Below are positions 1 through 15,648 of a DNA stretch of 15,744 bases, piece by piece. A program made the translations under genes and the position numbers. Origin of the DNA: Candidatus Odyssella thessalonicensis (GTDB lineage: Bacteria; Pseudomonadota; Alphaproteobacteria; Bin65); NCBI GenBank assembly GCA_005240015.1, contig SBBV01000135.1:1-15744 (forward strand), read 5' to 3'. Numbering within the stretch: the stretch's first letter is position 1; every line of letters starts with the position of its first letter. Below the pieces are notes generated by a model. The model worked only from the letters and a program-made list of their open reading frames with translations. It had not been told where the DNA came from and made no database searches.

Positions 1-2
1 CT

Positions 3-98
3 CTCGGCCGCGCCTCGGCATTGCTCGACGGCGAAATCGTGGTCGCCGACGAAGTGGGCCTCCCGAGTTTCAGCGAGCTACAGGCCGATCTGAGCGCC
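3..98 (+). pseudogene. Inverted fragment of the LigD ligase domain at the window edge
   Basis: Read on the plus strand from base 3, this is an open stretch of 32 codons giving LDGEIVVADEVGLPSFSELQ and flanking residues. That is the part of an ATP-dependent DNA ligase domain that follows motif Ia in LigD. The minus-strand ligD next to it stops resembling LigD exactly where this segment should continue: minus-strand GLDWTDRFRSIATALRS would normally lead straight into LGRASALLDGE. Bases 87-98 (gatctgagcgcc) make sense on both strands, as DLSA on plus and as part of TALRS on minus, so the junction lies in a 12-base shared stretch. The fragment has no start or stop of its own. It is best read as a fold-back artefact at a contig end, less likely as a true micro-inversion disrupting ligD. 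Confidence 0.8.
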
Positions 99-976
99 GT
101 GGCGATGCTGCGGAAACGGTCGGTCCAGTCGAGGCCCTTGCGCGTCAGCAGGCGGATCTTGCCGCCGTCGATGCGCGCCTGGATGCGATAGCCGTCGAAC
201 TTGATCTCGTGCACCCATCTGGCGCCACTCGGCGGCTTCTCGCACATCGCGGCGAGGCTGGGTTCCACGAACGCCGGCAGGATCTTCTTGCGCGCGCCGC
301 GCACCTTGCGGATGTCGGGCAGCACGAGCTTGCGCGTGGCGGCGACCTTCAAGCGCGCCTTGTGGTCCTCGCGCAAGGTTCCCTTGGCGGCGAGCGCATC
401 GATGGTGAGGCCGCTCACCGGCGAGGCCGTCTCCTCCTCGGTGATCTCGGGCGCGCCGGCCGGACGCGAATATTCGTCGTCGGACTTGATCAGGAGCCAG
501 GGATCGTTTTTCTCGCCGCGGCGCGGCCGGATGCGCACGAGGTGCCATTTGCCCCTGAGCCGCTCGCCCTCGAGGAAGAACGCGAGGTGTCCTTTCTCGA
601 GCCCCTTCCGCGCGTCGAATTCCGGCGTCCAGCGGCCGCGGTCCCAGACGATCATGCTGCCGCCGCCATATTCGCCCTTGGGGATGTTGCCCTCGAAGCG
701 GAGATATTCGAGCGGATGATCCTCGGTGCGGATCGCCAGGCGCTTCTCGCCGGTGGTGAGGCTCGGCCCGCGCGTGATCGCCCAGCTCTTCAAGACACCG
801 CCGAGCTCGAGGCGGAGATCGTAATGAAGCCGACGCGCGGCGTGCTTCTGGACGACGAAGCCGTCGCCGCCGCCCCCGGCCTTGCGCGGCTTCGGCTCCG
901 GCGTGCGCGCGAAGTCGCGCTTGCGGTCATAGGCCTCGAGCGAGGACTTTTCCGGGCGTGTCGAGCGCGTGGGCAA
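87..976 (-). CDS. ligD: ATP-dependent DNA ligase LigD, N-terminal part (phosphoesterase + start of ligase domain)
   Basis: LigD seals and processes broken DNA ends in bacterial NHEJ together with Ku. About 296 residues are visible. The N-terminal 3'-phosphoesterase domain spans about residues 38-150. It has H45, H51, D53, R55, H87 and Y91, with the same spacing as the active-site set known from Pseudomonas LigD (H42, H48, D50, R52, H84, Y88). The ligase domain begins near residue 240 and has motif I EIKFDGYR with the nucleotidyl lysine at K259, then RKGLDWTDRF. The order PE-ligase implies that the rest of the ligase domain and probably a polymerase domain lie beyond the window. No ATG exists between the upstream in-frame stop and the PE domain. 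The TTG at 976 is preceded at 8 bases by GAGG, which overlaps the stop codon of the gene upstream. The C-terminal side is broken at about base 87-98 by an inverted segment. Confidence 0.93.
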
Positions 977-986
977 GGGCAGTGCC

Positions 987-2096
987 TCAGCGCGAGTTCG
1001 CGATGTTCATTTCGCAGAATTTCAACGCGCGCTTGGCCCGCGCCGCCCAATCCGAGTTGCTGTCGAGCTTGAGATATTGGCGCCACCACTTGGCGGCGTC
1101 CGAATGCTTCTCGAGCTTCTGCAGGAACAGCGCGAGGTTGAACATCGAGTCGGCATTCTGCGGATTGAGCTCGAGCGCGCGTTCGAGGCAGCGCACCGCC
1201 TCCTTGGTGCGGCCCTGCTCGTCGAGCACGTCGGCAAGATTGTGCCACGCCTCGGCATATTTAGGCCGCGCCGCGACGGCCGCGCGGAACGCCGCCTCGG
1301 CTTCGACGATGCGGCCTTCCGAGCTCATGAGGTTGCCGAGATTGAACGGCGCCGCCGCATCAGCGGGATCGGTTTTCATCAGGCGCCGATAGAGCCGCTC
1401 GGCCATCGCGACGTCGTTCGCCTCTTCCGCCGCCTGCGCCTGCTCGAACAGAAAATCGGGATTCTCCTCCTGCGCCGCCATCGGCAGCACGAACTGGCCC
1501 TTCTGGTCGGTGCGGCCCCTGAGCTGCTCGATCAGGATGCGATCGGAGGCTTCCGGGAAGATGCGCAGGTTCGAGAGATGCGCATCGGGCAGCCATTTGC
1601 GGATCTCGGCGAGACTCCTGGTGATGACCGAGAGCGCCACGCCCGATGCCAGGAGGCTCGCGATCTGCCGCGCCGCGGCGAGGTCGCGAAAGCCGTAGCG
1701 CCCCACGCGCGGCTCGATCAACCCGAACATCGCGAGCTGCTCGATCACGCCGTCGGGCAGCTTGGCGAGCGTGCCGAGCTGGGCGGCGGTGTAGGTCTTG
1801 GTCTGCTCCTCGGGGACGGCCTTGCCGATCCATTCGAGGAACTTGCGCTCGCTCGCGATCGGGAGCCCGTAGGCGCGCGCCTGCTCGAGGCTGTTCGAGG
1901 GGCGCCCGTCGGCGAGCAGCGGCCAGCCGAGCTCGCCGATGATGACGACGCTGGTTTCCCTGGTGACCCCGCGCCTTGGCGTTCCGCCGCGCTTCTCGAC
2001 CTCGGCGAAGGCCTCGGCCCGCTTCATCGACGCGAGCCGCCCGGTGAAGGCGACGATGCCCTCCAGCGAACCGCGGGTTGGTTCGAGTTCGTTCAG
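987..2096 (-). CDS. BRCT / MerR-like helix-turn-helix / TPR fusion protein of the NHEJ operon
   Basis: This 369-residue protein lies between ku and ligD, and I do not know a described function for it. Residues about 9-92 look like a BRCT domain: the first strand runs into FTG (17-19), there is a glycine pair at 37-38, a VVIIGE strand (50-55), and the aromatic in FLEWI (W89) of the last helix. Residues about 101-205 resemble a MerR-type winged helix (YTAAQLGTLAKL, FGLIEPRVGRYGFRDL, then a long helix). Residues about 213-360 contain about four TPR units, such as AEAWHNLADVLDEQGRTKEA. The first ATG (2027) would cut into the BRCT FTG strand region. Upstream the frame has no ATG, GTG or TTG, so I place the start at a CTG that overlaps the ku stop (CTGA, 4-base overlap), with GAAGG about 10 bases before it. 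A BRCT in this position could bridge Ku or LigD; DNA binding and protein scaffolding are inferences from the domains. Confidence 0.85.
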   Translation of the reverse strand: MNELEPTRGSLEGIVAFTGRLASMKRAEAFAEVEKRGGTPRRGVTRETSVVIIGELGWPLLADGRPSNSLEQARAYGLPIASERKFLEWIGKAVPEEQTKTYTAAQLGTLAKLPDGVIEQLAMFGLIEPRVGRYGFRDLAAARQIASLLASGVALSVITRSLAEIRKWLPDAHLSNLRIFPEASDRILIEQLRGRTDQKGQFVLPMAAQEENPDFLFEQAQAAEEANDVAMAERLYRRLMKTDPADAAAPFNLGNLMSSEGRIVEAEAAFRAAVAARPKYAEAWHNLADVLDEQGRTKEAVRCLERALELNPQNADSMFNLALFLQKLEKHSDAAKWWRQYLKLDSNSDWAARAKRALKFCEMNIANSR

Positions 2097-2938
2097 CGTC
2101 CGGCCGCCTTCTTCGCAGTGGCGCGAGTGCGGGCGCTCGGCGCAGCCGGCTTCTTCTTCGTCTCGGCGCCGATGCTCGCGCGCAGCGCATCCATGAGGTT
2201 GATCACGCGCTGCGGCTGGGGCTCTTCCTTCTTCGGCTGGATCACCGCGCCGGCCTGCTTGGCGCGCAGGAGCTCCACCAGCGCCGATTCGTAGTGATCC
2301 TCGAACTTGGTCGGATCGAATGTGTCGGCCTTGCTGTCGACGATGTGCGCCGCCAGCTCCTTCATCTCGCCGGGCAGCTTGAGATCCGGAATGTCGCTGA
2401 AATAGGCGGCCTGATCGCGCACTTCGTACTGGTAGCGCAGCGTCACCGCGAGGAGCCCCTTGTCGAACGGCTCCAGCATCACGACGCGCTCGCGCCGGTT
2501 CAGCACGATACGGCCCAGCGCCACCATTTTCTTGTCGCGGATCGCGTCGCGGATGACCGCAAAGGCCTCGAGGCCGACCTGGTCGGTGGGGGCCACGTAG
2601 TAGGGGCTGTCGAGATAGCGCTCGTCGATCTCGGCGCGCGGCACGAAGCTGCCGATGTCGACCGTGTGCGTGCTCTCGATCTGGATCTTCTCGATTTCCC
2701 CGTCCTCGACCTGGAGATACTGGCCCTTCCCGATCTCGTAGCCGCGGACGATGTCCTCCTTGTCGACAAGCTCGCCCGACTCGGAATCGACCAGCTGCTG
2801 CTTCAAACGATTGCCGGTCTTCTTGTTGATGCGGTTGAACGACACGCGCTCCGAGCTCGAGGCCGCCGGGTAGAGGGCGATCGGGCACGAAACGAGCGAA
2901 AGCTTGAGGTAGCCCTTCCAATAGGCTCTGGGAGCCAT
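2093..2938 (-). CDS. ku: Non-homologous end-joining protein Ku
   Basis: Bacterial Ku forms a ring-shaped homodimer that loads on double-strand DNA ends and recruits LigD. The 281-residue product fits the family's usual 260-300. It opens with the typical first strand (APRAYWKGYLKLSLVSCPI), followed by the conserved ELVDKEDIVRGYE region (about 57-69), the SPYYVAPTD strand, the RERVVMLEP block and the YFSDIPDLKLPGEM segment. The C-terminal tail (about 230-281) is rich in Lys, Pro and Ala, as in the variable DNA-binding and LigD-contacting extensions of bacterial Ku. The ATG start is backed by AGGAG six bases upstream. It is the first gene of a minus-strand operon: its TGA overlaps the start of the BRCT/TPR gene, and ligD follows. 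Confidence 0.97.
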   Translation of the reverse strand: MAPRAYWKGYLKLSLVSCPIALYPAASSSERVSFNRINKKTGNRLKQQLVDSESGELVDKEDIVRGYEIGKGQYLQVEDGEIEKIQIESTHTVDIGSFVPRAEIDERYLDSPYYVAPTDQVGLEAFAVIRDAIRDKKMVALGRIVLNRRERVVMLEPFDKGLLAVTLRYQYEVRDQAAYFSDIPDLKLPGEMKELAAHIVDSKADTFDPTKFEDHYESALVELLRAKQAGAVIQPKKEEPQPQRVINLMDALRASIGAETKKKPAAPSARTRATAKKAAGR

Positions 2939-3030: not shown

Positions 3031-3051
3031 GAGAACTCGTTAACGGTTCTC
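3031..3051. promoter_or_regulatory. 6-base dyad (GAGAAC-N9-GTTCTC), possible operator
   Basis: Perfect 6-base arms GAGAAC (3031-3036) and GTTCTC (3046-3051) flank a spacer containing GTTAAC, in the intergenic space between ku and the divergent BKACE gene. Its spacing would suit a dimeric regulator binding one face of the helix. No regulator is encoded beside it and chance occurrence is quite possible. Confidence 0.25.
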
Positions 3052-6274: not shown

Positions 6275-7234
6275 CTAGAATTGCCACGCGGCGACGAAGA
6301 TCGCCGCCATCGCACCCGCCAGCGCCAGGCTCCACTTGTCCTTGATCGCGAATTCGACCGGATCGTCGTCGAGCTCGCCGCGGCCGGCCAGCAGCCAGTA
6401 GCGGCCGAGCCAGAGGAACAGCACGGCCGGCAGCGCCCACAGCAGGACGGGCGTCTTGTAGAACGCGGCGCTGAAGGCCTCGTGCAGCAGGTAGAGAATC
6501 ATGATCAGCACGGCGGCGATGCCGGTCGAGACGCCGAGGCCGAACAAGAGCGGCCCGTCCTTGGCGAAATAGCCGCGGCCGTGAATGATCTCGCGGCCGA
6601 GCGTTCCGGTACGCGCCACTTCGGTGTGGCGCTTGCCGAGCGACAGGGAGAGGAAAATGAACATCGAGAAGACCAGGAGCCACGGCGAGGCGACCACCTG
6701 CGCGAGGTGGATGCCGAACACGAGCCTGAGCGTGAACAGCACGGCCAGGATGAACACGTCGAGCACCGGCACGCGCTTCAGGCTGAACGAATACGCCAGG
6801 GTCAGCCCGCAGTAGGCGAGCAGGATCGCGACCGCGCCGAGATCGATGCTGGCGGCGATGCCGAAGCTCACGGCCGTGCCGATCGCGATCGCCGTGAGCG
6901 CCGGGCCGAGCGGCAGGTCGCCGTTGGCCAGCGGCCGTGTCCATTTCGACCAATGCAGGCGGTCGTACCGCAGGTCGCGCAGGTCGTTGAGGATGTAGGT
7001 TGACGAGGCCAGGATCCCGAACGCGATGAATCCGGCGACGCACGCCTTCCACGCGTCCAGGCTCTGGAATTTTCCCGCCAGGATCAGCGGGACGAAGATG
7101 ACGAGATTCTTGACCCACTGATGCAGCCGCAGCGACTTCAACAGCGGCAGCAGGATGCGCTTGCGGCCGACGAGATTGGCCTCGAGCGTCGCCACCTTGA
7201 GCGCGCCGCGGTCTCTGGTTCCATCCGCGTTCAT
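6275..7234 (-). CDS. UbiA-family prenyltransferase, decaprenyl-phosphate phosphoribosyltransferase-like
   Basis: This is a 319-residue polytopic membrane enzyme with about eight or nine hydrophobic segments. The opening SLRLHQWVKNLVIFVPL (about 34-50) is typical of the branch that transfers phosphoribose to polyprenyl phosphate (Rv3806c-like) rather than of quinone UbiA. The first Asp-rich motif is NDLRDLRYD with N83, D84, D87 and D91, which binds Mg-diphosphate. The RPLANGDLP loop follows, and the second catalytic region is YSFSLKRVPVLDVF. The ATG at 7234 has GGAG nine bases upstream. A longer frame from 7279 has no ribosome site and gives a poor N-terminus. The product would be a lipid-linked pentose phosphate or similar donor, which fits the lipid-donor GT-C glycosyltransferases at 11424-15648. 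The epimerases DprE1/DprE2 that would complete arabinose formation are not in this window. Confidence 0.88.
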   Translation of the reverse strand: MNADGTRDRGALKVATLEANLVGRKRILLPLLKSLRLHQWVKNLVIFVPLILAGKFQSLDAWKACVAGFIAFGILASSTYILNDLRDLRYDRLHWSKWTRPLANGDLPLGPALTAIAIGTAVSFGIAASIDLGAVAILLAYCGLTLAYSFSLKRVPVLDVFILAVLFTLRLVFGIHLAQVVASPWLLVFSMFIFLSLSLGKRHTEVARTGTLGREIIHGRGYFAKDGPLLFGLGVSTGIAAVLIMILYLLHEAFSAAFYKTPVLLWALPAVLFLWLGRYWLLAGRGELDDDPVEFAIKDKWSLALAGAMAAIFVAAWQF

Positions 7235-7584
7235 CGCAGCGCGCTCCGCTGCGGGAAAAGCGCGGGCCGGACGTTCCATCCGGGCACGATGAGGCTAGGC
7301 TGCCGGCAATCCAGACGCAGTTTCATCGCTCACGACTCGAGCTGGCGCGGCTGCCACCGCTCCATGCGTTGCAGGGAACCCGCCCAAGACGCGAACGCTA
7401 GGTAGTTCGCCCGATCCGAGCCGACGGCGGCGCTGATCGCACGTCCCCGTATCCTGTGCATTCAAGCACCCCTGGCTGGCCAGCGACCCCTTTCCGTGGA
7501 GTCTCCCCTCCGGCAGCTACGCAAAAGTATCTAGAATACGGTGCCTGGGCAACCGAAGAAGTGATGACAAAACAGCCTCCGCTC

Positions 7585-7604
7585 AAAAAAATTTCTTGAA
7601 ATTT
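7585..7604 (-). terminator. A+T palindrome followed by a T-run downstream of the carbamoyltransferase gene
   Basis: On the minus strand AAATTTC (7604-7598), two bases, and GAAATTT (7595-7589) are followed by TTTT (7588-7585), about 65-85 bases past the carbamoyltransferase stop. The stem is all A/T but one pair and the 2-base loop is too tight for a good RNA hairpin. It could therefore be a weak terminator or a protein-binding dyad. Confidence 0.3.
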
Positions 7605-7629
7605 GGCGGGCACGATTCGCGCGGTGTGC

Positions 7630-7647
7630 CCCATAGCCCGTTATGGG
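7630..7647 (-). terminator. Short hairpin just after the carbamoyltransferase gene
   Basis: CCCATA (7630-7635) and TATGGG (7642-7647) form a 6-base stem with a 6-base loop, about 20 bases past the carbamoyltransferase stop. No T-run follows it directly, though an A+T-rich tract starts some 25 bases further along the transcript. Confidence 0.3.
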
Positions 7648-7667
7648 AAATGCCCTCGCGCCGCGCT

Positions 7668-9503
7668 CTAGTCCGGATCGAAGCGGTGCTTGTAGTCCTT
7701 GGCTAGCGCCGGGTTTTGCCGGTCCTTCTTCATCAGGCAGCGGCCGGCCACCAGCGTTTCCATCTCGGTGCCCATGAAGCAGCGGAACGCGTCCTCGGGC
7801 GTGCACACGATGGGCTCGCCGCGCACGTTGAAGCTGGTGTTGACCAGCACCGAGCAGCCGGTGCGCGCCTTCCACGATTTCAACAGCGCGTGGAAGCGGG
7901 GGTTGGTCTCGGCGTGCACCGTCTGGATGCGCGCCGAATAGTCGACGTGGGTGACGGCGGGGATGTCCGAGCGCGGCACGTTGAGCTTGTCGATGCCGAA
8001 CAGCTGCTCCTCGGCCTCGGAGAGCTGCCGCCGGCGATTGCGCTTCACGTCGGCGACGAGGAGCATGTAGGGGCTCGGCTGGTCGAGCTCGAAATACTCG
8101 GCCACGTCCTCGTCGAGCACCGCCGGCGCGAACGGGCGGAAGCTCTCGCGGTACTTGATGCGGAGATTGAGCGTCTTCTGCATCGTGGGATTGCGCGGAT
8201 CGCCCAGGATCGAGCGCGCGCCCAAGGCGCGCGGGCCGAACTCCATGCGCCCCTGGAACCACCCGACGGCGTCGCCGGCGGCCAGCGCATCGACTGTGCG
8301 CTCGAGCAGCGGCGCCTCGTCGTGCGTTTCGAACCGCGCGCCGGCGGCGGCCAAGCGCTGCTCGATCTCGCCGTCGGCATAGGCCGGACCCAGGAACGAG
8401 CCCTGCATGCCGTCGAGCGCGCCGTTCAAGGGCCGGTCCTTGCCGACGTGGAGATGCCAGGCCGCGAGCGCAGCGCCAACCGCGCCGCCGGCATCGCCCG
8501 CGGCCGGCTGCATCCAGAGATTCTTGAAGCGGCCGTCGCGCAGGATCTTGCCGTTGGCGACGCAATTGAGCGCCACGCCGCCGGCGAGGCACAGATTCGG
8601 GATCGCATAGGTGCGCGCGAGCTCGCGCGTCATACGAAGCATCACCTCCTCGGTCACCTTCTGCACCGAGGCAGCGAGATCCATGTGCCGCTGTGTCAGG
8701 CGCTCGGCGGGATCGCGCGGCTTGCCGCCGAACAGCGCGTCGAACTTCGGTGCCGTCATCCTGAGGCCGGTCGCGTAGTCGAAATAGCTCTGGTCGAGCC
8801 AGAAGCTGCCGTCCTCCTTCAAGTCGATCAGGTGATCGAGGATCAGCTGCGCGTATTTGGGCTCGCCATAGGGTGCGAGGCCCATCACCTTGTATTCGCC
8901 GGAATTGACCTTGAACCCGGTGTAGTAGGTGAAGGCCGAGTAGAGCAGGCCGAGGCTGTGCGGCCAGCGGATCTCGCGCACGATGTCGAGCTGGCGCCCG
9001 CGGCCCACCGACACCGACGCCGTCGCCCATTCCCCGACGCCGTCGAGCGTCAGCACCGCCGCTTCGCTGAACGGCGACGGGAAGAACGCCGAGGCGGCGT
9101 GGCTCTGATGATGCTCGGCGAAGAGCAGCTTGTCCGCCACCTTGCCCTTGGCGCCGAAGGCCTCGAGCGACTTGATGAGGTTCGCCTTCTGGAACAGCTT
9201 CTCCTTGATCCAGACCGGGATCGCGGCGCGGAACGATCGGAACCCGCGCGGCGCATTGGCGAGATAGGTCTCGATCAGCCGCTCGAATTTCAGGAACGGC
9301 TTCTCGTTGAAGACGATGTGATCCAGATCTTCGAGCCCGACGCCGCCTTCCTTCAGGCAATAGGCGATGGCGTTCTCGGGAAAGCCGGGATCGTGCTTCT
9401 TGCGCGTGAAGCGTTCCTCCTGCGCGGCGGCGACGACCTTGCCGTCGCGCAGCAGCACCGCGGCGCTGTCGTGATAGAAGGCCGAGATGCCGAGGATGTG
9501 CAT
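7668..9503 (-). CDS. O-carbamoyltransferase, NodU/CmcH/TobZ family
   Basis: The enzyme uses carbamoyl phosphate and ATP to make a carbamoyl-adenylate, then carbamoylates a hydroxyl, usually on a sugar or natural product. The 611 residues match full-length two-domain members. The N-terminal Kae1-like domain starts ILGISAFYHDSAAVLL and has AAQEERFTRKKHD, the metal/active-site HHQSHAAS (H131, H132, H135) and VLTLDGVGEWATASV. The C-terminal domain carries FQGRMEFGPRALGARSILGD, KYRESFRPFAPAVL and LVNTSFNVRGEPIVCTPEDA, all hallmark blocks. GAGG seven bases before ATG 9503 sets the start. It is the last gene of a minus-strand run after the DUF5989 and SxtJ genes, a grouping I recognise from many envelope and polysaccharide loci. 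The acceptor is unknown; envelope glycan is favoured by the neighbouring glycosyltransferases. Confidence 0.96.
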   Translation of the reverse strand: MHILGISAFYHDSAAVLLRDGKVVAAAQEERFTRKKHDPGFPENAIAYCLKEGGVGLEDLDHIVFNEKPFLKFERLIETYLANAPRGFRSFRAAIPVWIKEKLFQKANLIKSLEAFGAKGKVADKLLFAEHHQSHAASAFFPSPFSEAAVLTLDGVGEWATASVSVGRGRQLDIVREIRWPHSLGLLYSAFTYYTGFKVNSGEYKVMGLAPYGEPKYAQLILDHLIDLKEDGSFWLDQSYFDYATGLRMTAPKFDALFGGKPRDPAERLTQRHMDLAASVQKVTEEVMLRMTRELARTYAIPNLCLAGGVALNCVANGKILRDGRFKNLWMQPAAGDAGGAVGAALAAWHLHVGKDRPLNGALDGMQGSFLGPAYADGEIEQRLAAAGARFETHDEAPLLERTVDALAAGDAVGWFQGRMEFGPRALGARSILGDPRNPTMQKTLNLRIKYRESFRPFAPAVLDEDVAEYFELDQPSPYMLLVADVKRNRRRQLSEAEEQLFGIDKLNVPRSDIPAVTHVDYSARIQTVHAETNPRFHALLKSWKARTGCSVLVNTSFNVRGEPIVCTPEDAFRCFMGTEMETLVAGRCLMKKDRQNPALAKDYKHRFDPD

Positions 9504-9540
9504 CAGCGCGCCTCGGATCCGAGCGGCGAGACTGGGCGCG

Positions 9541-9693
9541 CTAGAACACGGTGTAGATGAACGGCCCGATCGCCGAGCCTTGCGCCAGGATGAGGAGGCC
9601 GCCGAAGACGAGCAGCACGATCAAGACGGGCAAGAGCCACCACTTCTTGCGCGCCCGCATGTAGACGAAGAGCTCTCGCAACAGCGATCCCAT
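9541..9693 (-). CDS. DUF5989-family small membrane protein (50 residues)
   Basis: The frame runs from ATG 9693 (MGSLLRELFVYMRARKKWW) to TAG at 9541. A single transmembrane segment, LLPVLIVLLVFGGLLILA, spans about residues 20-37, preceded by a basic RARKKWW that should stay cytoplasmic, and the chain ends AIGPFIYTVF. Length, charge pattern and the GPFIYTVF end match the small DUF5989 proteins that occur beside SxtJ and carbamoyltransferase genes. It is 37 bases upstream of the carbamoyltransferase and 56 bases after SxtJ, so probably cotranscribed. Function is unknown; a membrane anchor or adaptor for the carbamoyltransferase is conceivable. It is short enough to be missed by automated calling. 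Confidence 0.88.
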   Translation of the reverse strand: MGSLLRELFVYMRARKKWWLLPVLIVLLVFGGLLILAQGSAIGPFIYTVF

Positions 9694-9749
9694 GGATTTC
9701 CGTTCCCCGATTGCGGCTCATTTTCGCTGAAAGGGCCAAAGCGAGCCAG

Positions 9750-10166
9750 TCAGAATTGGTTGCGCATGGAGTGGCCGGGCTCCGCCGGATCGCGCGCGAT
9801 CCAGTAGGTCTTGAGCTCGGGCTTGCGCCGGCGGATCAACGGGTCGCGCCAGACCTGCATCAAGAGGCCCATCGGCACGAACGCCACGACGAAGACCAGC
9901 AGCATCACCACCGGGTTCATGACGCGGCTCAGCAGCAGCGCGAACTTGAACCACGCACGATTGAGCGGCTTGAGCAGCGCCGGCCGCGCGAAGCTCACAA
10001 CGAGCAGCACGCCGGCGATCGCTACCGCGCTGATCCACACCGCTTGCGTGCCGCGGAACAGCACGGCGACGATCGCGGCGACCACGGCGAAGACGATGCC
10101 GGTCCCCCGCTCCGAGGGCGGCTTGATCTTGCTCGTCACCAATGGGTCGTGAAAACCGCCGGCCAT
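9750..10166 (-). CDS. SxtJ-family membrane protein
   Basis: This is a 138-residue protein with three hydrophobic stretches: IVFAVVAAIVAVLF (about 24-37), AVWISAVAIAGVLLVVSFA (about 42-60) and VVMLLVFVVAFVPMGLLMQVW (about 86-106). The family pattern is the LKPLNRAWFKFALLLSRVMNP block between segments two and three, then GLLMQVWRDPL and a C-terminus rich in Arg, Trp and Pro that ends SMRNQF. SxtJ is named from saxitoxin clusters, where it lies beside a carbamoyltransferase, and its role is not established. Here it precedes the DUF5989 and carbamoyltransferase genes on the same strand. The ATG at 10166 has an AGAG-type ribosome site of only moderate quality. Confidence 0.88.
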   Translation of the reverse strand: MAGGFHDPLVTSKIKPPSERGTGIVFAVVAAIVAVLFRGTQAVWISAVAIAGVLLVVSFARPALLKPLNRAWFKFALLLSRVMNPVVMLLVFVVAFVPMGLLMQVWRDPLIRRRKPELKTYWIARDPAEPGHSMRNQF

Positions 10167-10244
10167 TCCTGCTCTTTCGAACGCGCCCCCGATGGCGCGC
10201 CGGCAAACTAGCCTAGTGCCGCCCTGAGCGCCACGGCCGGCTTG

Positions 10245-10259
10245 CCGCCGCTTCGGCGG
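10245..10259 (-). terminator. GC-rich hairpin right after the MDR oxidoreductase gene
   Basis: CCGCCG (10245-10250) and CGGCGG (10254-10259) pair with a 3-base loop, starting 4 bases past the oxidoreductase stop and before the SxtJ gene. No T-run follows, so it may be a processing or attenuation element rather than a full terminator within the minus-strand gene run. Confidence 0.35.
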
Positions 10260-10262
10260 GCC

Positions 10263-11309
10263 TCAGCCGTGCCTTACCAGAACCTTGATAACGCGCTCGG
10301 GCTGGTCCGCGATCCATTGGACCGCGCCGGCCGCGTCGGCGAACGGTACAACTGGGTCGAGAATCCCGTCCGCGGTAATCGTGCCCGTGCTGAGGTCGTC
10401 AGCCACGATTTTTTGGAGGTCCTTGGCGTAGAGCGGCCGCGGACCCCGCACCGGGTTGTTCCAGCCGAAGGCCGGCAGCGAGGCGAGCAGGCTGATCCGG
10501 TTATGGAAGAACTCCTCGCCGAGGTTGAGCCGCTCGTCGGCCGGACCGTAGAAGCCGACGCAGACCACGCGCCCGCATTGGCGCGCGGCGCGGATCGCGA
10601 GCGTGAGATTGGCGATGCTGCCCGAGCATTCGATCGCCGCGTCGACGCCGCCCGTCTGCTGCTTGAGGTCGCGCGCGAGATCGCCGTGCGCCTTGGAGTC
10701 GAAGCTGTGCGCGGCGCCGAAGCGCTCGGCGAGCCTGCGGCGCGGCGCGAAGCTCGATGCCGCAAGCACGCGCGCGCCCTTCGCCTTCGCGTATTGAACC
10801 GCGAACAGGCCGATCGCGCCGAGGCCGGTGACGAGCACGGATTCGCCGGCCGCGATGGCACCGTCGAGCACCCCTCCGAGCGCGAACGAGGCCGGATCGA
10901 TCGCCAGCGCCTGCTCGGGCGAGAGCGCCCCGAGCGGCTGCAACTTTTCCGTCGGCAAGACATGGATGTCAGCGATCGGCGCCCAGGCGTAGACGAGCTG
11001 GCCCGCGGCGAGGCCACGAACCCCGGCGCCCGCCTCGACGACCTCGCCCACTACCATGTTGCCGAGGGGGCGCGGATAGAAGTCTTGTGGCGTCGTCTCG
11101 CGCTCGAACAGGCGTAGGCGCGGATTGAACTTCCGCGCGGCGAACGGGCTCAGCCCGAGATAGGCCATCATCTCGGTGCCGTGCTTGAAGGTCGAGTAGA
11201 GCGAGCGGACGACGGCGTCGCCCGGCCCGAGGGGCGGCAACGCCTTCTCGGCGAAGCGCACCTGCCGCGGCCCCTCGAGCATCAGGACACGTTGCGTGCT
11301 CGGCGGCAT
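10263..11309 (-). CDS. Zinc-less MDR-family (alcohol dehydrogenase-like) oxidoreductase
   Basis: This is a 348-residue medium-chain dehydrogenase. The N-terminal GroES-like domain is present, but where zinc enzymes have CGTD this one has HGTE (43-46), and where they have GHE it has GNM (83-85). The four-cysteine structural zinc lobe is absent too, so it should act without zinc. The Rossmann fold is clear: SVLVTGLGAIGLFAVQYAKAKGARVLAAS, with G162, G164 and G167. Later blocks are DAAIECSGS and GRVVCVGFYG. The closest general resemblance is to the BchC-like/zinc-lacking branch that oxidises or reduces hydroxyls on sugars or large ring compounds. Start ATG 11309 is the first in frame; its ribosome site is weak. 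It shares a 114-base divergent intergenic region with the glycosyltransferase operon and heads the minus-strand SxtJ/carbamoyltransferase run, so a role in nucleotide- or lipid-sugar modification is plausible but inferred. Confidence 0.87.
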   Translation of the reverse strand: MPPSTQRVLMLEGPRQVRFAEKALPPLGPGDAVVRSLYSTFKHGTEMMAYLGLSPFAARKFNPRLRLFERETTPQDFYPRPLGNMVVGEVVEAGAGVRGLAAGQLVYAWAPIADIHVLPTEKLQPLGALSPEQALAIDPASFALGGVLDGAIAAGESVLVTGLGAIGLFAVQYAKAKGARVLAASSFAPRRRLAERFGAAHSFDSKAHGDLARDLKQQTGGVDAAIECSGSIANLTLAIRAARQCGRVVCVGFYGPADERLNLGEEFFHNRISLLASLPAFGWNNPVRGPRPLYAKDLQKIVADDLSTGTITADGILDPVVPFADAAGAVQWIADQPERVIKVLVRHG

Positions 11310-11423
11310 GGGCGGCGAGGCTCCGGGGGGCGGAAAGGGACTTTCGCCCGTATACGCCACCCGGGAGATTGCGCAAAGCGGGCCGAGCGGGCAGAAACCC
11401 CGCATGGGGCAAGGAGCCGGTTG

Positions 11424-12914
11424 GTGCAGCAGAGCGACGCGCTTCGTTTCCGCGTGAATCTCCTTGGCGCGCTGGCGCTTACCGCCTACGGGGCGATGGC
11501 GCTGCTCTCCTGGGTGCAGGCGCCGGCGCTCTGGGGCAGCCGCACCGACGTCCCCAAGGCGAACGCGTTCTTCCGCAGCCTCGCCGAGGCCATTCCCGGC
11601 GTCGGTCTCCACCGCCTCTTCGACGGCACTTCCGTCGTCATCAGCCACTTCATTCCGCTCGGGCTCGCCACGCTCGCCGCGCTGTTGCTCGTCGGGTTGC
11701 TCATGCGCCGCCGCGCCGACGCCGGCGACGCCCTGGCGCATTTGATCCTCCGCTGGTCGATCGCCTTCGCCGCGGTCTCCGCGCTCGCCTTTCCGGTCTT
11801 CACGCAGGATTTCTGGCTCTCGGCCGCGTGGGGGCGGATGGTCGCGGCGGCAGAGAACCCTTACCACCAGATGTTCACGCCCCAGTCGCTCGACGGCATC
11901 CCGCTCGACCATTTTCCGATGGCGATGTCGTACGGGCCGGCCTGGGCGATCCTTTCGGGCGTGGTGATGGCCGTCTCGGGCAAGAGCCTGATCGCGACGG
12001 CGATCCTGTTCAAAACGCTGCTCGGCGCGGCGTGGATCGGATCGCTCGTGCTGGTGGCGCGCATCGCCGCAGCGCGCGGCGGCGGAGAGCGCTGCCTCGC
12101 CGTGGCGCTGTTCGGCTGGATCCCGGTCGGCGTCACGCAGACCGTGGCCGAGGGCCACAACGACATCCTCATGGCCGGGCTGGCGCTGCTGTGGCTCTAC
12201 CTGCTCGTCCGCGGGCGCTTTCTTGCGCCGGTGGCGCTGGCGGTTTCGGCGATGTCGAAATACGTGACCGGCCCGCTCGTCGTCGTCGATGCGATCGCGG
12301 CCTTGCGGCTCAGCCGGCTCTCGTGGCGCGCGTTCATCCTGCGCTATGTGGCGCCGGGGCTCGTCGGCCTTGGGCTGCTCGCGGTCTTCTATCGCTCGTT
12401 CAAGTTCTTCGACGGCACGCGCCTCGTGAACCAGTGGTATTTCCTCATGCCGCGCAACGCGATCGGTGCGCTCGAGGACGCGCTGGACATCCCGCTCGTT
12501 CCGCTCGAATACCTGATCCACGCGGTCTTCGCCGCCATCGCGGTGATGAGCCTCGTCGTGCTCTACCGGCGGCCCTCCGCCGAGAACGTCGTGCGGGCGG
12601 CGCTGGCGCTGCTGTGCGTGGTCATGTTCGCGCTCGCCGCGCACATCTGGGCCTGGTACCTCGTCTGGACGCTCGGCTTCGCTGCGCTGACGCCCACCTG
12701 GTGGCTCTCGCGCTTCGTCATCGGCATTTCGGTGCTGGTGCCGTTCACGGTGGCGCTGTGGTGGATCAAGGGCCTCGACTATTACCAGGAATGGGCGTCG
12801 CTGATCATGTATGTGGGCGCGCTCGTGTGGGCCTTGGCGACGCGCGAGTCAGCGGCTGGGCGCGTTCCGGCCCGCGAGGCTGAGGAAGCCGCGCAAGGCT
12901 CGCTCGGGCGATGA
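11424..12914 (+). CDS. GT-C fold polyprenyl-phosphate-sugar glycosyltransferase (MptA/B- or GT87-like), first of three
   Basis: This is a 496-residue integral membrane protein with about a dozen hydrophobic segments. The GTG start at 11424 is fixed by AAGGAG seven bases upstream; no ATG lies nearby. After the first long loop the motif TQDFWLSAAWGRMVA (D129) followed by ENPYHQMF is the GT-C signature region, placing a catalytic Asp on the periplasmic side. Other family marks are MSYGPAWAIL, TVAEGHNDILMAGLALLWLY (E243) and AMSKYVTGPLVV. The EGHND and SKYV blocks resemble actinobacterial polyprenol-phosphomannose-dependent mannosyltransferases. The sugar and acceptor cannot be read from sequence. 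The C-terminal 30 or so residues are a polar cytoplasmic tail. Its stop overlaps the next start by 4 bases (ATGA), implying coupled translation. Confidence 0.85.
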   Translation: MQQSDALRFRVNLLGALALTAYGAMALLSWVQAPALWGSRTDVPKANAFFRSLAEAIPGVGLHRLFDGTSVVISHFIPLGLATLAALLLVGLLMRRRADAGDALAHLILRWSIAFAAVSALAFPVFTQDFWLSAAWGRMVAAAENPYHQMFTPQSLDGIPLDHFPMAMSYGPAWAILSGVVMAVSGKSLIATAILFKTLLGAAWIGSLVLVARIAAARGGGERCLAVALFGWIPVGVTQTVAEGHNDILMAGLALLWLYLLVRGRFLAPVALAVSAMSKYVTGPLVVVDAIAALRLSRLSWRAFILRYVAPGLVGLGLLAVFYRSFKFFDGTRLVNQWYFLMPRNAIGALEDALDIPLVPLEYLIHAVFAAIAVMSLVVLYRRPSAENVVRAALALLCVVMFALAAHIWAWYLVWTLGFAALTPTWWLSRFVIGISVLVPFTVALWWIKGLDYYQEWASLIMYVGALVWALATRESAAGRVPAREAEEAAQGSLGR

Positions 12915-14245
12915 GCCGTTCCGCAGGAGCGGAGGGCGATGCGCTGGGCGGCCACGACACGGCGGCGGCGCCGAAGCCAGCCGCAGAGGCCAAGCCGGCG
13001 GCGAAGAGCCGCCTGCCGATCTGGCTTGCGGCAGGGCTCGGCGGCGTCGCCGTGCATCTCGTGCTCTGGCAGATCTCCGAGCCGTCCGCGCTGTTCAGCG
13101 ACTTCTTCAAGGCCAACTGGGAAGCGGCGGCACATCTCTGGGAGGATGGCTGGAACGCGACTTTCCCGCTCACCGAGAAGGGCGGCTTCTCGCAGCTGCC
13201 GAGCCTCGGCTGGCTCTACGTGCCGTTCCTGGCGCTCGGCGAGAGCTGGGCGGGCTGGGGCTGGACCGCGCTGGGATTGGCGGCTCTGCTCGCCGCCTGG
13301 GCGCTGCTCGTGCGCCTGGCGCGCCTCGAGCCGCCGCTGGCGGCAGCACTCTTGTTCTGCTTCCTCGCCAACGGCCCCGCCGTCAACAGCCTGCGCGAGG
13401 GGCAGACCTCGCACATCATGCTGTTCCTGCTCGTCGCGGGGCTCGCGCTGTGGCGGCGCAGGCGCGAGTTCTTGGCCGGGCTCGCCTTCGGCCTTTGTGC
13501 CGCGATCAAGCTGCCGCTGCTCTTCCTCGGCGTCTACTTCCTCTACCGGCGGCGCTGGCGCATCGCGGCGGGCGGCGGCGCAGCGGTCGGCCTTGTCGTG
13601 CTGACCTCGGCCGCGCAGTTCGGCTTCGGCAGCCTCGTCGCGTGGTACCAGGAGTGGGTGGCGCCCTATCTCAGCGGCTACATCCCGGCCTTCAACGTGC
13701 AATCGATCGACGGATTTCTGCTGCGCCTCGAAAAGGGCGAGGCGTTCATGATCCACTGGGATCCGCCTTTCGCACCCTCGTTGTTCCACCGCATCGCGCG
13801 CGCCGTTGCCCTCATCGCGCTGTTCGGGACCACCATGTGGCTGATCTGGCGCGGCGCACGCCTTGCGCCCACCGCCGGCGCCGAGCCCTCCCCGCGCGAG
13901 CTCGTTGAGTTCGCGCTCGTGATCGCGCTCGGCTTGCTGACGAGCCCGATCTCGTGGACGCACTACTACGTCTACCTCCTGATCCCGTGGGCGCTCTATC
14001 TCGGCCGCCAGCTGCCGCTTTCCGACGATGTGGCGACGCGCTGGCTGATGCGCCTCGGTTATCTCGGCGCGTCGATGCCGATCGTGATGTGGGCGACGAC
14101 CGAGCCCAGCTGGTATAACGCCGTGCTGTCGCGGACCGTGGTTTCCGTCTGCCTCATCGGCGGGCTCTCGATGTTCGTGGCGCTGGCGCGCGGAACCTGG
14201 CGCGCCGACCGCCGCGCCCCCCTTTCTCAATCTTCGCTACCCTAA
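12911..14245 (+). CDS. GT87-family (DUF2029) membrane glycosyltransferase, second of three
   Basis: This is a 444-residue polytopic protein that begins with a polar Ala/Lys/Pro-rich cytoplasmic leader of about 34 residues before the first membrane segment. GT87 features in order are SDFFKANWEAAAHLW in the first external loop, LREGQTSHIMLFLLVAGLAL (the GQ motif), AAIKLPLLFLGVYFLYRRRW (basic residue before an LPLL helix), FNVQSIDGFLLRL, and LTSPISWTHYYVYLLIP near the C-terminus. These enzymes transfer a sugar from a polyprenyl-phosphate donor on the outer face of the inner membrane. The ATG overlaps the preceding stop (ATGA). Six bases after its own stop the third glycosyltransferase starts, so all three are probably one transcript. 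Confidence 0.88.
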   Translation: MSRSAGAEGDALGGHDTAAAPKPAAEAKPAAKSRLPIWLAAGLGGVAVHLVLWQISEPSALFSDFFKANWEAAAHLWEDGWNATFPLTEKGGFSQLPSLGWLYVPFLALGESWAGWGWTALGLAALLAAWALLVRLARLEPPLAAALLFCFLANGPAVNSLREGQTSHIMLFLLVAGLALWRRRREFLAGLAFGLCAAIKLPLLFLGVYFLYRRRWRIAAGGGAAVGLVVLTSAAQFGFGSLVAWYQEWVAPYLSGYIPAFNVQSIDGFLLRLEKGEAFMIHWDPPFAPSLFHRIARAVALIALFGTTMWLIWRGARLAPTAGAEPSPRELVEFALVIALGLLTSPISWTHYYVYLLIPWALYLGRQLPLSDDVATRWLMRLGYLGASMPIVMWATTEPSWYNAVLSRTVVSVCLIGGLSMFVALARGTWRADRRAPLSQSSLP

Positions 14246-14250
14246 GGACC

Positions 14251-15648
14251 ATGCAGACAGCCTCGCCCAGCTCGCCCCGTGCCTCGCTCTCGCTCACCTG
14301 GGCGATGGGGCTGTTCCTGCTGGTGAACGCGTTCGCGATCAACGGCGCGCTCTGGCTCGCCTCGCCGCAGCCCTACAAGGAGACGGTGCTGAAGCACAGC
14401 TGGGACGTGGTGACCGCGCGCGGCTGCGACGATTCCTGGGGCATCATGACCGTCGCCTACGAATACGCGATGGCGCCGCACACCACGCCGATCTACACCG
14501 AGGTCTTCTTCAACCGGAAGCTCAAGTTCCAGTATCCGCCCTCATCGCTGTTCATCATAGGCGCGATGCTGAAGATCGCCGGCCGCGAGCAGTTCCGCAC
14601 CGAGGAATGCAAGGTCTACGACACGCCGCCGATCAACGACATCCTCGGATGGATGTTCATCCTGCTAATCGTCGTCTCGGCGACGGCTGTGCTCGAGGTG
14701 TGGCTCCGGCGCAAGCACGGCATCCGCAGCGCGTGGTCGATGATCGCCGCGCGGGGCGTGCTCGTCGCCGGCTTCACGCTCACCTTCTATCCGGTCGTGA
14801 AGGCATTCACGCTCGGGCAGATCCAGCTCTGGATCAACGCGGCGTTCACGATGTCGCTCTTGGCCTGGGTGCTCGGCCACAAGGCCGCGAGCGGCGTGCT
14901 GATCGGCTTCATGTGTCTCATCAAGCCGCACTACGGCGCGTTCCTGCTCTGGGGCCTGCTGCGCCGCGAGTGGCGCTTCGCGCTCGGCCTCGCCGGCATG
15001 GTGGTGGTCGGCATCGGCGCGTCGCTGCTCGTGTTCGGCTGGGCCGACAATGTCGACTACATGAAGGTGTTCTGGTTCCTCTCGCAACGCGGCGAGGCGT
15101 TCTTTCCGAACCAGTCGGTGAACGGCCTGCTCAACCGCGTGATGAGCCTCGCCGACCCCGTCGCCTACAAGAACATCGTCTTCGACGACAACGGCTTCCC
15201 GCCGTTCACGCCGCTCGTCTATGGCGGCGCGCTCGTCGCCGCGCTGCTGCTCGTCGGCACGGCCCTCTTCCGGCGCGGCATCGGCGGCGATTCCGATCGC
15301 ACGCTCGACTACGCAACGATGGCGCTCAGCATCACCATGGCGTCGACGATCGCCTGGGAGCATCACTACGGCGTCGTCTTTCCGATTTTCGCCCTGGTGC
15401 TCGCGAACTCGCTTGGCAACCGCGCGCGGCTTATTTGGCTCGGCGTCGCCTACGTGCTGATCAGCAACTTCATTCCGGTCACCAATCTGCTCGCGGCCAC
15501 GCCGGCGAACATCGTGCAATCCTATCTGTTCGCCGGGGCGATCATCCTGCTCGTGCTATTGCACCGGAGCCGGACGGGCTGGCGCATGTCGGCGAGCGCC
15601 GCAGCAGCGCCGGTCGCCGCAATGCCGGCGACCGTGAAGGCGACGTAG
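14251..15648 (+). CDS. GT87-family (DUF2029) membrane glycosyltransferase, third of three
   Basis: This 465-residue polytopic protein is a diverged paralogue of the gene before it. Corresponding blocks appear in the same order: TPIYTEVFFNRKLKFQYPPS in the first external loop, KAFTLGQIQLWINAAF (GQ motif), CLIKPHYGAFLLWGLLRREW, FFPNQSVNGLLNRV (matching FNVQSIDGFLLRL), and TIAWEHHYGVVFPIFAL. The first loop is long (about 35-120) and holds several cysteines (C54, in ARGCDDSW, and the later EECKVYD), which could form a periplasmic disulphide. The ribosome site TAAGG straddles the stop codon of the upstream gene. The C-terminal tail is short, Ala-rich and polar. Donor and acceptor are unknown. Confidence 0.9.
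   Translation: MQTASPSSPRASLSLTWAMGLFLLVNAFAINGALWLASPQPYKETVLKHSWDVVTARGCDDSWGIMTVAYEYAMAPHTTPIYTEVFFNRKLKFQYPPSSLFIIGAMLKIAGREQFRTEECKVYDTPPINDILGWMFILLIVVSATAVLEVWLRRKHGIRSAWSMIAARGVLVAGFTLTFYPVVKAFTLGQIQLWINAAFTMSLLAWVLGHKAASGVLIGFMCLIKPHYGAFLLWGLLRREWRFALGLAGMVVVGIGASLLVFGWADNVDYMKVFWFLSQRGEAFFPNQSVNGLLNRVMSLADPVAYKNIVFDDNGFPPFTPLVYGGALVAALLLVGTALFRRGIGGDSDRTLDYATMALSITMASTIAWEHHYGVVFPIFALVLANSLGNRARLIWLGVAYVLISNFIPVTNLLAATPANIVQSYLFAGAIILLVLLHRSRTGWRMSASAAAAPVAAMPATVKAT

Follow-up and report, generated by a model that had tools for sequence, protein, structure and literature searches.

A BRCT/MerR-like/TPR protein encoded directly behind ku is a candidate accessory factor of alphaproteobacterial end joining

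The prokaryotic nonhomologous end-joining (NHEJ) complex is described in the excerpt of PMC1378119 as consisting of only two factors, Ku and LigD. The window analyzed here, a stretch of 15,744 nucleotides from Candidatus Odyssella thessalonicensis, resembles this two-component system in having neighboring ku and ligD genes of standard type, but it differs in carrying a third conserved gene. The order on the minus strand is ku, a gene for a BRCT/MerR-like/TPR protein (the partner gene), and ligD. The features of the locus are collected in Table 1.

Table 1. Features of the ku-ligD locus in the window
Feature	Position	Strand	Evidence
BRCT/MerR-like winged helix/TPR gene (partner gene), 369 codons and stop, probable CTG start	987..2096	-	open frame and family
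BRCT domain, residues about 13-91	1824..2060	-	profiles and AlphaFold2 model
MerR-like winged helix with a degenerate recognition helix, residues about 100-168	1593..1799	-	profiles, alignment, model
Linker with conserved GQ and predicted strands, residues about 179-204, low model confidence	1485..1562	-	alignment, AlphaFold2 model
Four TPR helix pairs and capping helix, residues about 211-368	993..1466	-	profile, model, fold searches
ku, upstream of the partner gene	2093..2938	-	NCBIfam Ku_bact 1.3e-82
CTGA, in which the probable CTG start and the ku stop TGA overlap	2093..2096		sequence
ligD, truncated at the window edge, with the phosphoesterase domain and the beginning of the ligase domain	2..976	-	LigD phosphoesterase domain 2.8e-66

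The open frame is a real gene. Two database searches, each scoring 8000 candidates, returned at least 1641 related proteins at E ≤ 1e-3 and at least 1854 at E ≤ 1e-10, which excludes chance. The first-pass annotation had proposed a BRCT domain, a MerR-like winged helix, and about four TPRs, and this architecture holds in family profiles and in a structural model as a predicted N-terminal BRCT of the LigA/RFC1 type, a MerR-like winged helix, and four TPRs with a capping helix. The TPR match in the window protein has an E-value of 9.6e-22, and the protein shows the several 34-residue helix pairs expected of TPRs. By itself the window protein matches BRCT at 0.035 and MerR at 0.0099, both below the Pfam cut-offs. 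Among family members, the BRCT profile PF00533 was matched by seven of nine at E ≤ 1 (best 1.2e-6), and MerR_1 (PF13411) by six of eleven at E ≤ 1 (best 2.1e-5). A family profile of the N-terminal half retrieved the BRCTs of NAD-ligases (LigA) from the PDB at 1e-6 and the RFC1 BRCT at 3.9e-5. In a 144-genome search, the weaker matches were mostly BRCT-length pieces of LigA-sized frames (about 700 residues).

The winged helix was compared with two families of regulators. The piece from the window scored 19.5 bits against PF13411, where the cut-off is 21.6. Alignment with 23 MerR domains by hhalign gave 54.6% with 11 rows and 87.2% with 82 rows over 65-67 collinear positions, versus 1.4% and 1.1%, respectively, with 15 TetR domains; the control alignment of MerR with TetR gave 45% over 24 columns. 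We did not detect MerR when the PDB was searched with the winged-helix profile alone. The best row was a designed protein (6.5e-4), followed by TPR-like helices and others above 0.5, and an earlier, longer profile matched GlnR at no better than 0.61. The AlphaFold2 model, built from 82 sequences, has a mean pLDDT of 84.9 and a pTM of 0.68. Its BRCT part follows the order β-α-β-β-α-β-α (E14-18, H26-35, E39-41, E48-53, H68-75, E80-82, H83-89) with ten-residue mean pLDDT values of 61-94. Past the BRCT, the model has elements in winged-helix order, low-confidence strands, and then four TPR helix pairs and a cap, in agreement with the number of repeats first proposed. Fold-library searches with the full model gave only TPR structures among the matches listed, with no row for BRCT or winged helix. 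The evidence for these two assignments is thus profile similarity and the order in which the elements follow one another.

The 369-residue product assumes that translation probably starts at a CTG. The four-base overlap with ku noted at first pass is CTGA, and it requires this start. The window, L041, L043, and L044 have no ATG, GTG, or TTG from the ku stop up to the BRCT domain, and the CTG is the sole initiator-like junction codon common to these four loci. The first standard start in the window is an internal ATG, 66 bases past the ku stop. L041-L045 are the five closest named relatives of the window (L043 is a Rhodospirillales MAG); an ATG lies 6 bases past the ku stop in L042 and 4 bases past it in L045, and in Sinorhizobium the overlap of the two genes is TGATG. 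Eleven codons near the first BRCT strand were compared in the window, L041, L043, and L044. They carry 19 synonymous versus 8 amino-acid differences, counted over pairs of loci, and all 8 of the latter sit in two codons preceding AFTGRLASM. The prevalence of synonymous differences and the confinement of the replacements to two codons make the segment ahead of the internal ATG look translated. Of 120 listed database relatives, including the window's own entry, 54 (48 identified by pattern and 6 by eye) start at the internal Met and lack the first BRCT strand, and contig ends may truncate some of these entries. Taken as a set, the junctions suggest that the partner gene is likely translated from the CTG by reinitiation. 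In the window, L041-L044, and some others, the partner frame continues into ku without a stop. A Ku-partner fusion made by frameshifting was set aside as the less simple explanation, given the ATG of L042 and L045 and the TGATG of Sinorhizobium. In S. meliloti ml28 (L132, 8001-9106), the partner gene is split over two frames and is either broken or affected by a sequencing error.

The distribution of the gene was surveyed in 385 genomes of the window's class, taken from named relatives to be Alphaproteobacteria, the window included. At most eight first-look candidates were scored per genome, and misses are possible at this depth. Ku is present in 55 genomes and the partner gene, at E ≤ 1e-10, in 13. 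Each of the 13 also has Ku, and each carries the gene directly behind a ku in the same orientation, the criterion being a partner frame that begins within 400 bases behind the ku frame. The hypergeometric probability of the co-occurrence is 2.7e-12, a value that ignores kinship; the 13 genomes represent 11 genera. With the same limit of eight candidates per genome, the gene was found in none of the 330 Ku-negative genomes of the class. The association with ku noticed in a single contig extends to relatives, none of the 13 gene-bearing genomes having the gene away from ku. The weakest of the 13 (G233) matched at 2.6e-13 over the BRCT part only and at 6e-45 with a full-length profile; its ku and partner frames have about 180 bases in common, apparently through a frame error.

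Other samples gave the same picture. A set of 144 genomes, which overlaps the class sample and also includes the window, contains Ku in 22 genomes and the partner gene in nine at E ≤ 6.5e-30, the next match being 8.2e-10, and all nine genes are just behind a ku. A phylum sample of 397 genomes, searched for the partner gene and not for Ku, gave 13 matches at E ≤ 1e-10. Ten of these, at E ≤ 3.2e-22, are the window and nine members of one family, with ku directly upstream in nine of the nine; the remaining three match over the BRCT only and lie in frames of 680-1067 residues. All full-length members of determinable origin belong to the window's class. Among plasmid records, 87 carry the S. meliloti form, and 87 of the 691 that bear a Ku have one at least 80% identical to the Ku of that form. 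Positions were compared in the seven Sinorhizobium/Ensifer megaplasmid records with such a Ku that are common to both listings, and the partner adjoins Ku in all seven. In laboratory strain S. meliloti 2011 the gene is at 1490720-1491802 of megaplasmid record NC_020560.1, and near-identical records have Ku as its neighbor. A scan of genome contigs with two narrow patterns found nine loci. Five are the partner family, and four are short BRCT-part matches (three Spirochaetes records and one deltaproteobacterium). BRCT-part matches also occur on many Lactobacillales plasmids within the 233 plasmid records matched.

The placement between ku and ligD, as first described, stands for the window, L041-L045, and G125, but not for five other genomes (G017, G039, G155, G014, and G084) and annotated Rhizobiaceae plasmids, where the order is ligD-ku-gene. 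In G024 and G148, a ligase-domain piece lies on the opposite strand, before ku. Contact with ku is kept whether ligD is upstream or downstream, and the Kus concerned belong to lineages that do not group as a single clade. LigD sequence was found in or beside all 13 family loci examined, two of them with a ligase-domain piece only, in a survey that left out the loci of G344, G195, G233, and L119-L127. The two full-length LigDs that were checked each contain a phosphoesterase, a ligase, and a polymerase domain. A BRCT was not found in either (Pfam, E ≤ 0.01), as the first-pass annotation had stated for LigD itself. The annotated Rhizobiaceae operons of S. medicae ml29, S. meliloti Ak57, and Pararhizobium A13 (domains checked in the first) contain, in this order, ligD, Ku, a 'tetratricopeptide repeat protein', an alpha/beta hydrolase, and exodeoxyribonuclease III. 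These three operons, in which the hydrolase and exonuclease III come after the partner gene, are L130 (9112-10534), L133, and L134.

A quick tree of 74 Ku copies was used to compare the 17 linked to a partner gene with the 57 without one. Three of the 57 (L058, L090, and L113) have fewer than 800 bases behind them, and the tree excludes the broken ku frames L079, L081, and L096 and the duplicate L115, which equals L043. The linked Kus do not form one clade. The label needs six changes on this tree, three of them forced by starred branches, and the patchy linkage may have arisen by loss or by repeated capture. Ku and partner distances correlate with a rho of 0.61 (27 pairs, 0 of 500 shuffles), and the partner evolves faster than Ku (median distance 0.67 versus 0.51). 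The motif NLMDAL in the Ku tail is present in 15 of 17 linked versus 10 of 57 unlinked copies. This tail is a possible TPR ligand, and kinship alone may explain its distribution. Because 57 of the 74 Ku copies have no partner gene behind them, end joining as such does not require it.

These comparisons lead us to the view that the partner protein is probably an accessory scaffold of NHEJ dedicated to Ku. The fixed position and the overlap with ku suggest coupled synthesis, and translational coupling would produce the partner in a fixed ratio with Ku. TPRs bind peptides or helices, and the groove in this protein may hold a peptide of Ku or LigD. The BRCT, being of the NAD-ligase/RFC1 type, would touch the broken end at its 5' phosphate or would touch LigD. 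The protein would then steady Ku, the DNA end, and the ligase together, as scaffolds of the XRCC4/XLF/XRCC1 type do in eukaryotes. The exonuclease III of the three Rhizobiaceae operons is another end-processing enzyme, and we count it in favor of an NHEJ role.

The signature of a BRCT that binds a 5' phosphate is a TG motif with basic residues at α1 and α2. The window clade (72 rows) retains T18, G19, and R26 but lacks the α2 lysine. Ten divergent members have G19 in all, R20 in eight, R26 in five, R69 in seven, and T18 in none; the eight with a residue at this last position have all lost the T of the TG motif. The phosphate pocket of the family thus appears to be only partly kept, and for this reason we favor a scaffold without assigning a partner to each domain. 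The BRCTs of LigA and RFC1 resemble this domain in sequence profile and in the order of strands and helices. They differ in that here the BRCT is on a separate TPR protein and its pocket is incomplete. According to the portions of PMC9293009 and PMC9293004 consulted, the isolated RFC1 BRCT binds 5'-phosphorylated ends with a Kd of about 10 nM, and in intact RFC the docked domain hardly needs the 5' phosphate. A more ambitious version of the scaffold reading is put forward tentatively. The partner might be a third core component of alphaproteobacterial NHEJ that is made with Ku, supplies in trans the BRCT that LigD lacks, bridges two ends with Ku and LigD, and decides end processing, and it could then be a convergent bacterial counterpart of the XRCC4/XLF/XRCC1 class.

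The linkage to ku fits a regulator of ku equally well. The first-pass annotation had offered an operon regulator as its alternative. In such a regulator, the MerR-like domain would bind upstream of ku/ligD and the BRCT/TPR part would sense damage or a ligand. The MerR-like fold and the location inside the operon point in that direction, and the overlapping start would tie the partner level to Ku, but the recognition helix lacks the usual basic and aromatic residues. The LRFW or IRYY of six MerR rows occupies positions that contact DNA in MerR proteins. It is replaced by IEQL in the window and by varying residues in the family, which keeps L121 and mostly F124 on this helix. With the usual DNA-reading residues gone, the most likely role of the MerR-like domain is in structure or in contacts with proteins. 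It shares a winged-helix profile with the MerR-family regulators (PF13411), but no MerR dimerization or effector part is seen; in the model, low-confidence strands at 179-196, with a pLDDT of about 60-70, follow the winged helix in place of the long dimerization helix. The six closest loci were found to share no inverted repeat (exact arms of at least 6) within 200 bases upstream of ku, and neither an inverted repeat nor an EcfG-like site is common to this region in nine loci. This operator search covered promoters upstream of ku only. These results weaken the regulator, which we consider unlikely. An EcfG-like site was present upstream of ku in L056 only among the nine. The window has an inverted repeat, GAGAAC-N9-GTTCTC, at 3031-3051, about 100 bases before ku, and it is absent before ku in the eight other loci.

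Linking Ku to another pathway instead of to LigD, for instance by recruiting LigA, stalled-fork proteins, or a nuclease (exonuclease III of the operon would be one), is an equally improbable role for the partner. The BRCT is closest to LigA's own, and exonuclease III follows the gene in the three annotated Rhizobiaceae operons, the only ones in which it was sought, but LigD sequence accompanies all 13 loci examined (in two as the ligase-domain piece). It is very unlikely that the gene merely hitch-hikes with ku by transfer of whole islands and plays no role in end joining. Such a reading could draw on the patchy distribution of Ku (55 of 385 genomes), its frequency on plasmids (691 records), and its absence from the window's family. 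Against it, contact with ku persists although ligD order and Ku lineage change, the gene was found in none of 330 Ku-negative genomes (at most eight first-look candidates scored in each), and the BRCT is a repair-type module.

The Ku-dedicated scaffold, which we prefer, may be compared with eukaryotic factors. Eukaryotic NHEJ scaffolds that contain or bind BRCTs include ligase IV, XRCC4, XRCC1, and Pol X. The likeness is one of concept, an adaptor that carries a BRCT and acts where Ku has bound an end; homology is limited to the BRCT fold, and the comparison is an analogy only. NHEJ of S. meliloti was reportedly studied by Kobayashi et al. in 2008. The first-pass annotation knew of no described function, and we likewise found no account of the partner gene in the open literature, most subscription papers lying outside the search. 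The words 'BRCT' and 'tetratricopeptide' are absent from the excerpts of PMC7719229 and PMC11936186. Databases mostly name the protein 'tetratricopeptide repeat protein', and one fragment is named for its BRCT. It is apparently an unstudied third protein of Ku-LigD systems in some alphaproteobacteria, including S. meliloti. If so, a conserved third gene would change the picture of bacterial NHEJ as Ku plus LigD, and it would provide a testable candidate for holding bacterial ends together in the genetically easy S. meliloti. More speculatively, it may matter for genome editing with borrowed NHEJ systems. The ku genes of Mesorhizobium loti are heat-induced, according to the excerpt of PMC3989490.

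The window locus itself was either gained by transfer or lies on a misbinned contig, because Ku is absent from all ten genomes of the window's family (G001-G010) and an ortholog-grade match to the partner gene was found in none of the ten. The best match, in G001, is confined to TPR residues. One of the ten genomes is 75% complete, and the window's own bin is 74% complete. The family-level conclusions on the partner gene are independent of the origin of this locus. The window genome has a second ku (G000:C212:1720-2262, L058) with ligD directly behind it and no partner gene between; the C212 contig ends 736 bases further on. At 6275-15648, the window encodes a UbiA-type prenyltransferase, a carbamoyltransferase, and a pair of GT87 glycosyltransferases, together with proteins that match no Pfam family, and this region looks like a surface-sugar cluster.
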